64,000 nucleotides of DNA from Sandaracinus amylolyticus (GTDB lineage: Bacteria; Myxococcota_A; Polyangia; Polyangiales; Sandaracinaceae), in assembly GCF_021631985.1 (NCBI RefSeq), contig NZ_CP070225.1, forward strand, positions 2,976,001-3,040,000. The letters are read 5' to 3'. A program made the translations under genes and the position numbers. The notes beneath the pieces are model-generated. The model did not search any database. It was not told the DNA's origin and saw nothing but the letters and a program-made list of their open reading frames with translations. This document shows, in pieces, positions 8,724 through 13,258 of the stretch; the stretch's first letter is position 1, and every line of letters begins with the position of its first letter.

Positions 8724-8811
8724 GCCGGGAGGTCAGGGTACATTCTCCCGGCGCGCGTGGGCAATCTCTGCGCGGGAGATTCTTGACAACGCCGATGGGG
8801 GAATCCAAAAC
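8724..8811 (+). promoter_or_regulatory. Candidate promoter/operator region of the Rrf2-cysteine operon
   Basis: In the divergent gap between the kinase and the Rrf2 gene there is a perfect 8-bp inverted repeat, GCCGGGAG (8724-8731) and CTCCCGGC (8745-8752), and downstream a consensus -35 box TTGACA (8783-8788). The -10 is weak (CAAAAC at 17 bp spacing). Rrf2 proteins usually bind dyads at their own promoter, so autoregulation is plausible but unproven. Confidence 0.4.
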
Positions 8812-8881: not shown

Positions 8882-9343
8882 GTGAAGCTGTCGAACAAGG
8901 GCCGTTACGGCGTCCGCGCGATCTTCGACATCGCCTTCCACAACGAGGGGCGCGCCACGCAGATCAAGGAGATCGCGGAGCGCCAGGCGATCCCGCCCCG
9001 CTTCCTCGAGCAGATCTTCCAAGACCTCAAGCGCGCCGGTCTGGTCGCGTCGCGCCGTGGTCCGCGCGGCGGATACCAGCTCGCGAAGGCACCCGCGGAG
9101 ATCCGCCTCGGCGACATCGTGCGCGCCCTCGAGGGCCCGATCGCGGTGTCGGCGCCGAAGGACGACGCGAGCGCGCAGGAAGGCGACGCGACGAGCCGCC
9201 AGGTGACCGAGGAGGCGTTCGCCGAGGTCAGCAAGCGCATCGAGGCGTGCTTCGACGACGTCACGATCGAGGATCTCTGCGAGCGCGGCGAGGCGCTGGG
9301 GTATCGCCGCCGTCCGCCGAGCCGCTACGTCTACGTGATCTGA
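8882..9343 (+). CDS. Rrf2-family transcriptional regulator
   Basis: 153 residues starting at the GTG 8882, which follows AAGGAG at good spacing and gives the canonical N-terminus MKLSNKGRYGVRAI. The winged-helix part (residues 1-75) has the family signatures QIKEIAERQAIPPRFLEQIF and SRRGPRGGYQL. It lacks the three clustered cysteines that hold the iron-sulfur cluster in IscR; only two cysteines (ACFDDVTIEDLC) are present. In that respect it is closer to CymR, the cysteine-metabolism repressor of Firmicutes. Its stop overlaps the ATG of cysK (TGATG), so it heads the cysteine operon and is likely its regulator. That assignment is inference from context. Confidence 0.88.
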   Translation: MKLSNKGRYGVRAIFDIAFHNEGRATQIKEIAERQAIPPRFLEQIFQDLKRAGLVASRRGPRGGYQLAKAPAEIRLGDIVRALEGPIAVSAPKDDASAQEGDATSRQVTEEAFAEVSKRIEACFDDVTIEDLCERGEALGYRRRPPSRYVYVI

Positions 9344-10302
9344 TGGAGCGGCGAGGCGCGCGCGAGGTGGCACCGGTCGTCGACTCGGTGCTCGACCTGA
9401 TCGGCGAGACCCCGATGGTCCGGCTGCGACGCATCACGCGCGGCGGGAACGTCTGGGCGAAGTGCGAGCACCTGAACCCCGGCGGCTCGGTGAAGGATCG
9501 CATCTGCCTCGCGATGATCGAGCGCGCCGAGCGCGAAGGACGGCTGCGTCCCGGCGACACGGTGGTCGAGCCGACGAGCGGCAACACCGGCATCGGGCTC
9601 GCGCTCGTGTGCGCGACGAAGGGCTATCGCCTCGTGCTCACGATGCCCGCGAGCATGTCGCTCGAGCGGCGCCAGCTGCTCAAGTCGTACGGCGCGCAGA
9701 TCGTGCTCACCGAGCCCGAGCGCGTGATGGAAGGCGCGATCGCGGAGGCCGAGCGCATCGCGGCCGAGCGCGGCGCGTTCATGCCCTCGCAGTTCGACAA
9801 CCCCGCGAACCCCGCGATCCACGAGCACTCGACCGCCGACGAGATCCTGCGCGCGATGGGCGACGAGCCGGTCGACGCGCTGGTCGCGGCAGTCGGCACC
9901 GGCGGCACCGTGAGCGGCGTGGGGCGCGTGCTGAAGCAGCGCTGGCCCGACGTGCGCGTGATCGCGGTCGAGCCCGAGGCGAGCCCGGTGCTGCGCGGGG
10001 GTGTCGCCGGCCCCTCGAAGATCCAGGGGATCGGCGCGGGGTTCGTGCCCGGTAACTTCGACGGCAGCGTCGTCGACGAGATCCGCGGCGTCGAGGATCG
10101 CGTCGCATGGGACACCAAGCTCCGCCTCGCGCGCGAAGAAGGCCTGCTCGTCGGCATCAGCGCGGGCGCGAACGTCGCGGTCGCGATCGACGTCGCCGAG
10201 GAGCTCCGCGGTGTCGTGCGTGATCGCGAGCCGAACGTGATCACGATCCTCTGCGACACCGGCGAGCGCTACTTCTCGCTCGAGGCGCACTTTGCGGAGT
10301 GA
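9343..10302 (+). CDS. cysK: Cysteine synthase A (O-acetylserine sulfhydrylase)
   Basis: 319-residue PLP enzyme making cysteine from O-acetylserine and sulfide. Hallmarks are the PLP lysine in NPGGSVKDR (Lys51), the substrate/PLP loop TSGNTG (78-83), the phosphate loop GTGGTVSG and the C-terminal CDTGERY. MSLERRQLLKSYGAQIVLT is typical of CysK rather than of CysO-dependent CysM. The ATG overlaps the Rrf2 stop. The gene's 3' end overlaps the possible TTG start of the E1-like gene, so the operon is translationally packed. Having this free-sulfide enzyme in the same operon as a carrier-protein-dependent CysM suggests two parallel routes to cysteine. Confidence 0.92.
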   Translation: MERRGAREVAPVVDSVLDLIGETPMVRLRRITRGGNVWAKCEHLNPGGSVKDRICLAMIERAEREGRLRPGDTVVEPTSGNTGIGLALVCATKGYRLVLTMPASMSLERRQLLKSYGAQIVLTEPERVMEGAIAEAERIAAERGAFMPSQFDNPANPAIHEHSTADEILRAMGDEPVDALVAAVGTGGTVSGVGRVLKQRWPDVRVIAVEPEASPVLRGGVAGPSKIQGIGAGFVPGNFDGSVVDEIRGVEDRVAWDTKLRLAREEGLLVGISAGANVAVAIDVAEELRGVVRDREPNVITILCDTGERYFSLEAHFAE

Positions 10303-11026
10303 GAAGCACAGCGTGCTCGTGATCGGCGCCGGCGGGCTCGGATGCGCGGCGGGGATCGCGCTCGCGCGCAGCGGGATCGAGCTCGACGTGACGTTCGTCG
10401 ATCCCGATCGCGTCGAGCGCAGCAACCTGCATCGCCAGGTGCTCTTCGACGATCGCGACGTCGGGCATCCGAAGGCGGAGCGCGCTGCCGAGAAGATGCA
10501 CGCGATCTCCGGCGGCGCGATCACCGCACGCGGCGTGATCGATCGCGTCGACGTGACCAACGCCGAGGCGCTCTCGCGCGCCCACGACGTCGTGATCGAA
10601 GGCACCGATCGCCACGAGTCGAAGTTCCTCGCGGCCGACGCCGCGGCGCTCGCGCGCACCCCGGTCGTGCACGGCGGCGTGGTGCGCTGGGCGGGCTGGG
10701 CGATGGCGAGCACGCCCTTCGAGAGCGCGTGCCTGCGCTGCGTCTTCGAGGACGTGCCGCGCGACACCGACGTCGAGACCTGCGCCGAGGCCGGCGTGAT
10801 CGGCCCCGCGGTCGGCATCATCGGCGCGCTCGAGGCCGCGCTCGCGGTCCAGATCCTCGAGGGACGCCGCGAGGCCGCGGGCGTGCTCCATCGCTTCGAC
10901 GTTCGCACCGCGAGCGCCCGCACCAGCCGCGTGAAGTCGCGCGCGAGCTGCCCGCTGTGTGGAGAGCGCGCGACCATCCGCGCGCTCGACGAAGACCGCT
11001 ACGCCGCGCGTGCATGCGCGACGTGA
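10292..11026 (+). CDS. ThiF/MoeB-type E1-like adenylyltransferase for the CysO sulfur carrier
   Basis: 244 residues from a TTG at 10292; a GTG at 10313 is an alternative start. It has the nucleotide fold GAGGLG (12-17), the ATP-contact motif RSNLHRQ (43-49), four zinc cysteines as CLRC (147/150) and CPLC (220/223), and the catalytic-type cysteine in TCAEAGVIGP (Cys164). No rhodanese domain is attached, unlike mycobacterial MoeZ. By family chemistry it should adenylate the C-terminal glycine of a small ubiquitin-like protein so that sulfur can be added. The sulfur carrier gene lies 43 bases downstream, so CysO is the likely partner. The N-terminus is short for MoeB, which leaves the start open. 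Confidence 0.88.
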   Translation: MRSEKHSVLVIGAGGLGCAAGIALARSGIELDVTFVDPDRVERSNLHRQVLFDDRDVGHPKAERAAEKMHAISGGAITARGVIDRVDVTNAEALSRAHDVVIEGTDRHESKFLAADAAALARTPVVHGGVVRWAGWAMASTPFESACLRCVFEDVPRDTDVETCAEAGVIGPAVGIIGALEAALAVQILEGRREAAGVLHRFDVRTASARTSRVKSRASCPLCGERATIRALDEDRYAARACAT

Positions 11027-11069
11027 CCCGTTCTGCTCGGAAGACAGAGCCGTTCAGGAGAAGAGAGCC

Positions 11070-11342
11070 ATGACGATCAAGGTCCGCATCCCCACCCCGC
11101 TCCGCACCCTCACCGGCGGTCAGGACGAGGTCAAGGCCGAGGGCACGACGGTGCGCGCGGTCATCGATCACCTCGAGGCGCAGTACCCCGGCCTCAAGGA
11201 TCGCGTCTGCGACGAGAAGGGCGTGCGCCGCTTCGTGAACGTGTTCCTCAACGAAGAGGACATCCGCTTCCTCGACGGCCTCGACAGCGCGGTGCGCGCC
11301 GGGGACTCGGTCGAGATCATCCCCGCGATCGCCGGCGGGTGA
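11070..11342 (+). CDS. cysO: MoaD/ThiS-like sulfur carrier protein (CysO type)
   Basis: 90-residue beta-grasp protein ending exactly in Gly-Gly (IPAIAGG), the site that becomes a thiocarboxylate. The ATG at 11070 has AGGAG (11056-11060) upstream. NVFLNEEDIRFLDGLDS and the GDSVEIIPAIAGG end fit the MoaD/ThiS family; the length matches mycobacterial CysO (about 93). Placed between its presumed activating enzyme and CysM, followed by a JAMM peptidase, it is almost certainly the cysteine-pathway carrier rather than a molybdopterin subunit. No residues follow the GG, so no unmasking cleavage is needed. Confidence 0.9.
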   Translation: MTIKVRIPTPLRTLTGGQDEVKAEGTTVRAVIDHLEAQYPGLKDRVCDEKGVRRFVNVFLNEEDIRFLDGLDSAVRAGDSVEIIPAIAGG

Positions 11343-11348
11343 TCGTCG

Positions 11349-12281
11349 ATGCTCGCACGAGCGCGTCGCATCGCTGACGTCACCGAGGCGGTCGGCAACA
11401 CGCCGCTCGTGCGGCTGCGTCACCTCGAGGCGAAGGAGTGCCCGGGCGTCGAGCTCTGGCTGAAGCTCGAGTACTGCAACCCGGGCGGCTCGGTGAAGGA
11501 TCGCCCTGCCCTGCAGATGATCCGCGATGCGATCGCGAGTGGTCGCCTCACCAGCGACAAGATCCTGATCGACAGCACGAGCGGGAACACGGGCGTCGCG
11601 TACTCGCTCTTCGGCGCGGCGCTCGGCATCCGCGTGCAGCTCGTGATGCCGAGCAACGTGTCGCAGGCGCGCAAGGACATCACGCGCGCGTTCGGCACCG
11701 AGCTGATCCACAGCGATCCGATGGAGGGCTCGGACGGCGCGATCCGCCTCGTGAAGACGATCGTGGACGAGAATCCCGATCGTTACTTCTATCCGGATCA
11801 GTACTCGAACGCGTCGAACCCGCGCGCGCACTACCTCGGCACGGGGCGCGAGATCCTCGAGCAGGTCGGCGATCGCCTCACGCACTTCTGCGCGGGGCTC
11901 GGCACGACGGGCACGATGATGGGCACCACGCGCCGCCTGAAGGAGCGCTCGAGCGCAATCCAGTGCGTCGCGCTCGAGCCCGCCGAGGCGATGCACGGGC
12001 TCGAGGGGCTCAAGCACATGGGCAGCTCGATCGTCCCGCCGATCTACGACCCGACGATCTTCGACGAGATCCTGCCGGTCCCGACCGAAGAGGGCTGGGA
12101 CATGGCGGACCGCATCGCGCGCGAGGAGGGCCTGCACGTCGGGCACTCGACGGGCGGCAACGTGTGGGGCGCGATCCAGCTCGCGAAGCGCATCGAGCGC
12201 GGGTGCGTCGTCACCGTCGCGTGCGATCGCGGCGATCGCTACTTCGCGCCGATGCGATGGGAGAAGCGCTATGAGTGGTGA
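11349..12281 (+). CDS. cysM: Cysteine synthase, CysM type (uses CysO thiocarboxylate)
   Basis: 310-residue PLP enzyme. PLP lysine in NPGGSVKDRPA (Lys50), SGNTG at 78-82. The segment THFCAGLGTTGTMMGT and IYDPTIF closely match what I recall of M. tuberculosis CysM, which takes O-phosphoserine and CysO-COSH rather than free sulfide. In the Mycobacterium pathway the sulfur goes from the carrier to aminoacrylate, giving a CysO-cysteine adduct. The substrate choice here is inferred from context. The start lies six bases after the cysO stop, and the last 11 bases overlap the mec gene. Confidence 0.88.
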   Translation: MLARARRIADVTEAVGNTPLVRLRHLEAKECPGVELWLKLEYCNPGGSVKDRPALQMIRDAIASGRLTSDKILIDSTSGNTGVAYSLFGAALGIRVQLVMPSNVSQARKDITRAFGTELIHSDPMEGSDGAIRLVKTIVDENPDRYFYPDQYSNASNPRAHYLGTGREILEQVGDRLTHFCAGLGTTGTMMGTTRRLKERSSAIQCVALEPAEAMHGLEGLKHMGSSIVPPIYDPTIFDEILPVPTEEGWDMADRIAREEGLHVGHSTGGNVWGAIQLAKRIERGCVVTVACDRGDRYFAPMRWEKRYEW

Positions 12282-12774
12282 GAAGCCGTGGATCGAGGGT
12301 GATCTCGCGATCACGAAGAGCGCGATCGACGCGATCTACGCGCACGCGAAGGAGACGTACCCGAGCGAGTGCTGCGGGTTCGTGTCGGGCCCGGCGGACG
12401 ACGTCGCGCGCTGCGACGAGGCGGTGCGCGAGGTGAACGAGGCGGACAAGTACCATCGCCTCGACCCCGAGCGCTTCCCGCGCACGGCGCGCACGTACTT
12501 CAAGATCCACGAGCTGCGCGCGGCGCGCGCGTTCGAGCGCGGCGAGGCGAGCGGCAGGCCGATCAAGGTCATCTACCACTCGCACTGCGACGCGGGCTCG
12601 TACTTCAGCGCCGAGGACGCGGCGACGTTCGCGTCGGAAGGCGCGCTGATGTGGCCGTGCGCGTTCGTCGTCGTGAGCGTGATCGAGGGCGAGCCCAAGG
12701 GACATCAGCTCTGGGTGCACGTCCCGGGCACGAACGAGTTCCGGGAAGCGCCGATCCGCACCGTCGAAGGCTGA
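12271..12774 (+). CDS. mec: JAMM/MPN+ metalloprotease (Mec) releasing cysteine from CysO
   Basis: 167-residue zinc peptidase. The JAMM set is complete: Glu33 (PSECCG), then H103-S-H105 and seven residues to S113 and D116 (HSHCDAGSYFSAED). Mycobacterial Mec removes the C-terminal cysteine from CysO-Cys, regenerating the carrier; the neighbourhood here supports the same job. The ATG at 12271 overlaps the end of cysM. It is the last gene of the operon; a duplicated palindromic element follows 10 bases downstream. A protein deubiquitinase-like role is unlikely given the context. Confidence 0.9.
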   Translation: MSGEKPWIEGDLAITKSAIDAIYAHAKETYPSECCGFVSGPADDVARCDEAVREVNEADKYHRLDPERFPRTARTYFKIHELRAARAFERGEASGRPIKVIYHSHCDAGSYFSAEDAATFASEGALMWPCAFVVVSVIEGEPKGHQLWVHVPGTNEFREAPIRTVEG

Positions 12775-12784
12775 ATCGCGCGAG

Positions 12785-12974
12785 TTCAACGGCTCGCTGC
12801 GCAGCCAGCTCCCGTCCGTGCCCGAGACGGGCACTCCCGTCCGCCGGCTGCTTCGCGAGCACTCCTGTCGAGTCCCGATTTCAACGGCTCGCTGCGCAGC
12901 CAGCTCCCGTCCGTGCCCGAGACGGGCACTCCCGTCCGCCGGCTGCTTCGCGAGCACTCCTGTCGAGTCCCGAT
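12785..12974. repeat. Perfect 95-bp direct tandem duplication of a palindromic element
   Basis: Two identical head-to-tail copies, 12785-12879 and 12880-12974. Each contains an outer imperfect inverted repeat (GCTCGC..GCAGCC against GGCTGC..GCGAGC) and an inner perfect hairpin GTGCCCGAGACGGGCAC. No coding sequence or transposase is linked to it. It begins 10 bases after the mec stop, so it may act as the operon's 3' structure. A diverged relative lies at 30.92-31.01 kb, sharing GGCTCGCTG, CTCCCGTCC and GCGAGCACTCC in the same order. Confidence 0.9.
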
Positions 12975-13258
12975 TTCGGCCGCAGAACGCGATTTAGCGG
13001 CGCCCGATCGCGTCCAGCGCGCGCTGGACGCGGTTCTAGGCCGCCGAATCGCGTCCAGTGGCCACTAGAGCCAATTCTCCGGCTCCCAACCGCTTCAATT
13101 CCGCTCTGACTGCGTGTGGGGGATTCCCAATCGCCTTCTGGGCGCGCTGGAGGCGAGTTGGCGGCGCGAAATCGCGTTCTCGGCGCCGAGGAAGCGGTCC
13201 GGCGCGACGGCTCCTGGGACGTCCCCGGAGACTCGCGCGGCGTGGGCCCAAACGCATC
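12975..13258. other. Non-coding stretch with palindromes
   Basis: About 280 bases without a convincing gene. Besides the 24-bp palindrome listed separately it holds AGTGGCCACT and CTCGGCGCCGAG, both perfect palindromes, and recurring ATCGCGTCCAG-like words. No RNA gene was recognised, and the short frames present have no ribosome site or motif. Confidence 0.6.
13009..13032. repeat. 24-bp perfect palindrome
   Basis: CGCGTCCAGCGC followed immediately by its exact reverse complement GCGCTGGACGCG, with no spacer. It could be a protein-binding site or part of a repeat family; the half-site word GCGTCCAG recurs about 30 bases further on. No gene covers it. Confidence 0.85.

Follow-up and report, generated by a model that had tools for sequence, protein, structure and literature searches.

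An armless E1 in a probable myxobacterial carrier-protein cysteine operon, and the small pseudo-E1 gene beside it in most E1-bearing relatives

How does an E1-like enzyme serve a sulfur carrier when it lacks the N-terminal arm of its family? The predicted operon rrf2-cysK-E1-cysO-cysM-mec of Sandaracinus amylolyticus raises this question. We analysed it in a window of 64,000 nucleotides (GCF_021631985.1, contig NZ_CP070225.1, positions 2,976,001 to 3,040,000; G000:C1:2976001-3040000), taken from a genome of 10.96 Mb in two contigs. We observed that the E1 of this operon is armless and that most E1-bearing relatives have an additional small gene, here called X, whose start resembles the missing arm. 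At the level of sequence, the analysis established the gene content of the operon, the loss of the arm, the existence of X with a conserved arginine, the co-occurrence of X with E1 and the absence of X from the window's genus. The operon probably makes cysteine on a protein carrier by means of a split activating enzyme.

The sequence-only reading of this DNA had described a dedicated short E1 without a rhodanese domain. Pfam analysis bore this out insofar as the operon encodes its own E1, which consists of a ThiF domain only. The enzyme is not merely a short MoeB, however, since the N-terminal RYxRQ arm is also gone: its PF00899 match spans profile positions 20-237 of 238, with the N-terminal part missing. 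A profile of the operon E1 aligned with residues 30-257 of the 266-amino-acid MoeB part of a fusion protein encoded in the same genome (E 6e-56). The MoeB comparison comprised 16 sequences of the window's order, in L174 numbering. No RYxRQ arm was seen at any of the 109 operon E1 loci inspected (91 plus 18 new, four of them cut at a contig end), a sample of the operon E1 genes found in the profile scans described below. An arm hidden upstream in the window's E1 frame was ruled out, as the open frame of 261 amino acids adds 17 codons and no arm. Matches resembling 'RHRRA' upstream of E1 were judged to be the end of cysK read in the E1 frame and were discarded. In an alignment of 75 distinct E1 sequences, G10, N43, R46, K59, D104, C145, C148, C162 and C218 were conserved in all lettered rows. 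The window E1 has the consensus residue wherever conservation in this set reaches at least 93%, and its ratio of nonsynonymous to synonymous substitution rates (dN/dS) relative to the congener is 0.19. Passages of PMC13139853 identify ThiF Arg11 and MoeB Arg14 as an arginine finger that the arm brings into the ATP site of the partner subunit. On these alignments the operon E1 is more than a shortened MoeB: it has lost its arm, which most relatives encode in a gene of its own.

Gene X is found as an extra ~300 bp between cysO and cysM and codes for ~90-140 amino acids. The X profile aligned with residues 3-59 of the MoeB part (probability 98, E 2e-13) and also, weakly and in the same order, with residues 200-220 (probability 7). 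When compared to PDB sequences, it matched ThiF, Uba4 and MoeB at E values of 9e-8 to 2e-6, and its arginine aligned with the second arginine of ThiF RYSRQ. Among 76 distinct X sequences, the residue equal to ThiF Arg11 was arginine in 70 and lysine in 3 of the 73 lettered rows, and it was more conserved than the residues flanking it. X is under purifying selection, with dN/dS values of 0.15-0.41 in 15 of 15 pairs. Pfam gave a weak ThiF match for 5 of 45 X proteins and no match for the other 40. Judged by these profiles, X is a miniature pseudo-E1 that carries the arm with its arginine finger.

We then asked how X is distributed. Searching 377 genomes from the phylum for Mec gave matches in 240 of them. 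The first locus set consisted of 80 stretches (74 chosen from the Mec matches and 6 others) and the window, making 81 loci; the second, which overlaps the first, consisted of 80 loci (80 of 85 confirmed candidates were kept). Both were scanned with profiles of six operon proteins. After 18 of the 81 loci had been set aside (13 without CysO and 5 at contig edges), 63 could be scored in the first set: 41 had E1 and X, 12 had E1 alone, 10 had CysO and Mec with neither E1 nor X adjoining, and none had X alone. X thus stands beside the armless E1 in 41 of 53 scored E1-bearing loci. The second set gave 59 loci with E1 and X, 1 with E1 alone, 4 with neither and 1 with X alone, with 15 set aside and 65 scored. 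In these scans the gene order rrf2-cysK-E1-cysO-(X)-cysM-mec recurred across the window's order and in parts of its class, CysM and CysK adjoined CysO and Mec in most scored loci, and the same operon was present in G377, a congener of the window's genome. Similar operons are widespread in Myxococcota, and because the same gene set and order recur in many genomes, the operon is not a chance arrangement.

The 12 E1 loci without X fall into three groups: 3 belong to the window's genus, 7 to family f13 and 2 to family f23. Both f23 loci bear the arm fused to the N-terminus of Mec. Such Mec proteins of ~350 amino acids, in which a pseudo-E1 part (RYGRQLLV...) precedes the JAMM domain, were found at L083, L085, L173, L233, L234 and L241. 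The f23 fusions matched the X profile, from which the L173 row had been excluded, at E values of 5e-6 and 1e-4 and gave 26-bit matches in the locus scans, and the N-terminal part of the L173 fusion matches the MoeB N-terminus. Pfam did not detect the arm part in the three X-Mec fusions submitted to it. In an E1 tree rooted on MoeB of the window's order, the deepest branch is X-bearing. The window's genus falls within a 38-member clade, 35 of whose members have X (support 0.98), and the sister group of f13 is the fused f23 form (support 0.91). Two losses of X would explain the E1 genes without it.

The separate, inactive, arm-bearing relative of the adenylation domain that is present in relatives is not found in the window's genome. 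No stand-alone X was detected there among the 150 of 392 and 150 of 332 first-look candidates that were scored, a search that a very diverged copy could escape, and a location of X elsewhere in the genome was rejected on this result. When 16 whole genomes were searched, clear matches in the ones lacking X were confined to open frames of 392-663 amino acids and to the f23 fusions, next to a few weak matches. We take the open frames to be full-length MoeB proteins, which was confirmed for the window's genome only. There, the protein is a rhodanese-MoeB fusion of 397 amino acids at ~3.18 Mb (G000:C1:3181706-3182896; L003 1444-2634), with a rhodanese-like part that, by eye, is N-terminal. Its RYSRH arm is the one clear example that the genome yielded.

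To place X structurally, we modelled it with AlphaFold. X alone gave a mean predicted local distance difference test (pLDDT) score of 87.5 and a predicted template modelling (pTM) score of 0.78. The structural relatives of this model were Uba4 (Z 9.1), ThiF (8.8), MoeB (8.6), SAE1 (7.7) and APPBP1 (7.4), over 107-112 residues, and the best unrelated structure reached 4.7. A single chain of E1, CysO and X from L121 was modelled with pLDDT 84.6 and pTM 0.73. With the single-chain pseudo-dimeric E1s UBA1, UBA6 and UBA7, 297-308 residues of this chain aligned, from its E1 part and its X part alike (Z 22.9-26.5, root-mean-square deviation 3.3-3.6), compared to 212-224 residues with one-subunit E1 chains. 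An alignment of this greater length would be expected if E1 and X formed the two halves of a pseudo-dimer. In the model, X seems to occupy the place on E1 that the second half takes in pseudo-dimeric enzymes, and we infer X to be an E1 subunit.

The operon itself agreed with much of what the sequence-only reading had claimed (Table 1). Its six packed plus-strand genes between 8882 and 12774 were recovered in that order as overlapping or closely spaced frames, all with Pfam matches. The named motifs were also present, namely the SVKDR lysine in both synthases, two CXXC motifs and the TCAEAG cysteine in E1, the GG end of the carrier, and E...HSH...SAED in the JAMM protease. The assignment of CysK held above its curated cut-off, and that of Mec rests on its Prok-JAB match and a full E, HxH, SxxD motif, whose residues E33, H103, H105, S113 and D116 are invariant in 10 aligned sequences including the window.

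Table 1. Predicted operon of the window and its upstream element (window coordinates; Pfam and NCBIfam scores in bits).
Feature	Position	Strand	Description
Promoter/operator-like element TTCTTGACAACGCCGATG	8780..8797	+	-35-like TTGACA then CCGATG; conserved upstream of rrf2
rrf2	8882..9343	+	Rrf2-family regulator, 153 amino acids, GTG start; two cysteines (by eye); PF02082 134.8
cysK	9343..10302	+	O-acetylserine sulfhydrylase, 319 amino acids; overlaps rrf2 by 1 bp; PALP 262; TIGR01139 390 (cut-off 351)
Armless E1 (ThiF/MoeB-like adenylyltransferase)	10292..11026	+	244 amino acids, TTG start; PF00899 174.2
cysO (ThiS/MoaD-fold sulfur carrier)	11070..11342	+	90 amino acids, C-terminus AIAGG; PF02597 70.8
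Site of missing gene X	11343..11348	+	6 bp here; ~300 bp with X in most E1-bearing relatives
cysM-like pyridoxal phosphate (PLP) synthase	11349..12281	+	310 amino acids, HGLEGLKHM motif; PF00291 204.6; TIGR01138 337 (cut-off 394)
mec (JAMM metalloprotease)	12271..12774	+	167 amino acids; overlaps cysM by 11 bp; PF14464 (Prok-JAB) 64.8

The carrier was confirmed as CysO-type by its Pfam match, its GG end and its nearest PDB sequences, 4n6e_B (89.9 bits) and 3dwg_C (85.4 bits; 90 of 90 residues). We take 3dwg_C to be CysO of Mycobacterium tuberculosis and 4n6e_B to be a CysO protein as well. NCBIfam names the carrier SAMP1 (61.5 against a cut-off of 60), and the single match of Mec is desampylase, under its cut-off. 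For the synthase, described earlier as cysM-type, support was incomplete. Its score is 225 bits with 2bht and 180 bits with 3dwg_A, presumably the CysM proteins of Escherichia coli and of mycobacteria, it stays under the TIGR01138 cut-off, and the lysine of its GLKHM motif, found in 122 of 122 loci (99 distinct sequences), stands at what may be the phosphoserine-binding Arg220 site of mycobacterial CysM. The synthases of G177, G012 and G149 are 74-98% identical to the window's. CysO would pass its sulfur to CysM, and the route may be oxidation-resistant, as the sequence-only reading proposed.

Upstream of rrf2, the window has the conserved element TTCTTGACAAnnCCGATG. When up to 2 mismatches were allowed, its core, TTGACNNNNCCGATG, was present in 59 of the 66 distinct rrf2 upstream regions, the window's among them, and 49 of these matches were exact. 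In 1,320 base-shuffled regions the core gave 1 exact match, and 19 when up to 2 mismatches were allowed. In the 11-Mb genome, TTCTTGACWNNNCCGATG has a single exact match, the one upstream of rrf2. This one promoter-like element agrees with the earlier claim that the set is under single control, and the simplest reading is one autoregulated promoter for the predicted operon, with the gene set as the putative Rrf2 target. A wider Rrf2 regulon was not found: besides the single exact site, the genome scan gave 12 sites with two mismatches, and a reversed control gave 6. The regulator passes the superfamily model TIGR00738 and falls under the cut-offs for CymR (94.4 against 195 bits) and IscR (103.1 against 207.55 bits). 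As a separate observation, 49 of 59 upstream regions have a -35-like TTGAC that starts no more than 35-38 bp ahead of the rrf2 profile match, compared to 99 bp in the window; because it lies so close, the rrf2 mRNA may be leaderless in those 49.

The neighbouring frames that Pfam could assign, 5 of 10, encode a Ser/Thr kinase, AhpC/TSA, an RNA methyltransferase, RimM and cytochrome c; a sulfur donor was not found among them. Directly 3' of mec, a 95-bp stretch stands in two head-to-tail copies (12785-12977). Elsewhere in the genome (G000:C1:3922451-3924237), a gene resembling serine acetyltransferase, which at 158.8 bits does not reach the CysE cut-off, lies near another PALP gene, and the two are perhaps the general cysteine pair of the genome.

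In the mechanism that we propose, E1 would adenylate the GG end of CysO, and a sulfur donor from outside the operon would convert this end to a thiocarboxylate. The CysM-like enzyme would add the CysO thiocarboxylate to PLP-bound aminoacrylate, and Mec would release cysteine from the resulting CysO-cysteine. CysK would in parallel make cysteine from free sulfide, and Rrf2 would govern the gene set via one promoter. In the myxobacterial clade, a MoeB/ThiF homodimer would have turned asymmetric, with the catalytic chain losing its N-terminal arm and X keeping the arm, the arginine finger and the minimal fold needed to dock at the place of the second MoeB subunit. X would have been lost later in the window's genus, where the armless E1 may act alone or with the full-length rhodanese-MoeB encoded elsewhere. 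Overall, we lean towards the view that myxobacteria independently evolved a two-subunit E1 for a sulfur carrier, composed of an armless catalytic chain and a mini pseudo-E1 that gives its arginine finger in trans and in one family is fused to the carrier's protease, and that the window's genus then lost the mini-subunit and runs a partnerless E1 or borrows the rhodanese-MoeB arm.

Several observations weigh against this two-subunit view. Passages of PMC13139853 describe the finger as non-essential for catalysis in MoeB and ThiF and absent from TcdA, which leaves no obvious reason to keep a separate arm. The window and 7 f13 genomes have E1 but no X, so an armless E1 can exist without it. Conversely, L134, a Sandaracinaceae record, has CysO-X-Mec (1874-2967) with no E1 in the 1.9 kb upstream, and the X-Mec fusions L085 and L241 lie in stretches where no E1 was found. 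Foldseek alone returned no match under E 0.001 for the X model. The placement of X on E1 derives from a single AlphaFold chain that has read-through linkers and only three fully paired rows, its aligned ranges being first and last residues. Within the E1 tree some inner nodes have low support, and MoeB of this order is the only outgroup. CysM is absent from the stretch in 9 of 41 E1+X loci, and in G328 and G343, of the same family, the best synthase is only 42-43% identical to the window CysM. Clusters of E1, CysO and X with no CysM in the stretch were seen at L054, L057, L101, L130, L135, L212, L220, L222, L228 and L229. Such loci show a module that is independent of this synthase, which itself scores under the CysM cut-off.

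Some of these points would suit an ordinary CysO pathway with a MoeB-like homodimeric E1, in which the arm was dispensable and lost and X is a leftover, or a tether of E1, CysO and Mec, with no role in adenylation. The finger reported as non-essential (PMC13139853), the 10 of 53 scored E1 loci with neither X nor a fused arm, the intact conserved positions of the window E1 and the X-Mec fusion, which fits a tether, are all consistent with this. However, purifying selection on X, a finger residue that is arginine or lysine in 73 of 73 rows and exceeds its flanks in conservation, and the rarity of X without an adjoining E1 (none among the 63 scored loci of the first set and 1 among the 65 of the second, apart from two X-Mec fusions) make it unlikely. 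It is similarly doubtful that the module serves SAMP/Urm1-like conjugation or general sulfur transfer, with the carrier placed on lysines or used for other thiolations, Mec as a desampylase and the synthases as mere neighbours. The SAMP1 and desampylase matches, the 9 E1+X loci without CysM and the lack of a close CysM in G328 and G343 speak for this, but most scored loci have CysM and CysK next to CysO and Mec, the window's cysM and mec genes overlap, the nearest solved relatives of the carrier include CysO (presumably that of M. tuberculosis) and the lysine motif of CysM is invariant. Finally, in the window's genus the full-length rhodanese-MoeB at 3.18 Mb might activate CysO in the way that MoeZ does in mycobacteria, with the operon E1 on its way out. 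The RYSRH arm of that fusion and the 10 of 63 scored loci with CysO and Mec but no adjoining E1 would agree with such a replacement, whereas the retained conserved residues of the window E1 and its dN/dS of 0.19 argue against it, and we give it little credence.

Compared to known systems, the operon shares GxGGxG, the ATP-site arginine, lysine and aspartate, the TC-AG cysteine and the zinc cysteines with MoeB/ThiF homodimers, whose chain contains the N-terminal arm with Arg14 or Arg11 that the operon E1 chain lacks. With CysO-CysM-Mec of M. tuberculosis (activator MoeZ) it has in common adjoining genes for a GG carrier, a synthase of the CysM class and a JAMM protease, and the chemistry proposed here follows that given in passages of PMC3227635. 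In those passages, mycobacterial CysO is loaded by MoeZR, which bears a rhodanese domain at its C-terminus; in the host's rhodanese-MoeB this part is N-terminal, and activation of the MoeZ type is not what the operon E1, a ThiF domain alone, suggests. The operon also differs in having its own E1 with neither rhodanese nor arm, in its additional CysK and Rrf2, and in X in relatives. At the position that may correspond to Arg220 of mycobacterial CysM, the synthase here has lysine.

Predicted operons of type 4c, with a ThiS/MoaD-like carrier, an E1-like enzyme, a JAB peptidase and a cysteine synthase, and of type 4d, which is the same without E1, had already been outlined by Iyer, Burroughs and Aravind in 2006 (PMC1779556), so the pathway is of a known kind and the cysteine reading is reasonable, not new. 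The type 4c E1 is fused to rhodanese, unlike the one here, and the split arm, X and Rrf2 do not figure in the passages of that paper describing the type. One catalytic adenylation unit paired with an inactive relative is also the arrangement of SAE1/SAE2 and NAE1(APPBP1)/UBA3, whose inactive members the modelled X fold resembles, and bacterial BilD holds an inactive and an active half in one chain, as set out in parts of PMC11354881. X differs from SAE1, APPBP1 and BilD in its size of ~90-140 amino acids, in having no separate catalytic-cysteine or ubiquitin-fold domain and in its sulfur-carrier setting; X and E1 are two small genes, and X is absent in some lineages, including the window's.

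Searches of the open-licence PMC literature brought up no recognisable report of a comparable split or heterodimeric E1 from bacteria. Eukaryotic E1 is thought to descend from symmetric bacterial MoeB/ThiF dimers in which one half lost catalysis. The myxobacterial case looks like a separate bacterial run of E1 asymmetry on a much smaller scale, with intermediates on view: the arm in a mini-gene, the arm fused to the protease, and the arm lost. It also suggests a function for a small gene without a Pfam match in 40 of the 45 members examined and, if true, makes the purpose of an E1's second half testable in a small system. In conclusion, the pathway itself is known, and the split E1, armless and partnerless in the window's genus, is a new variation on it.

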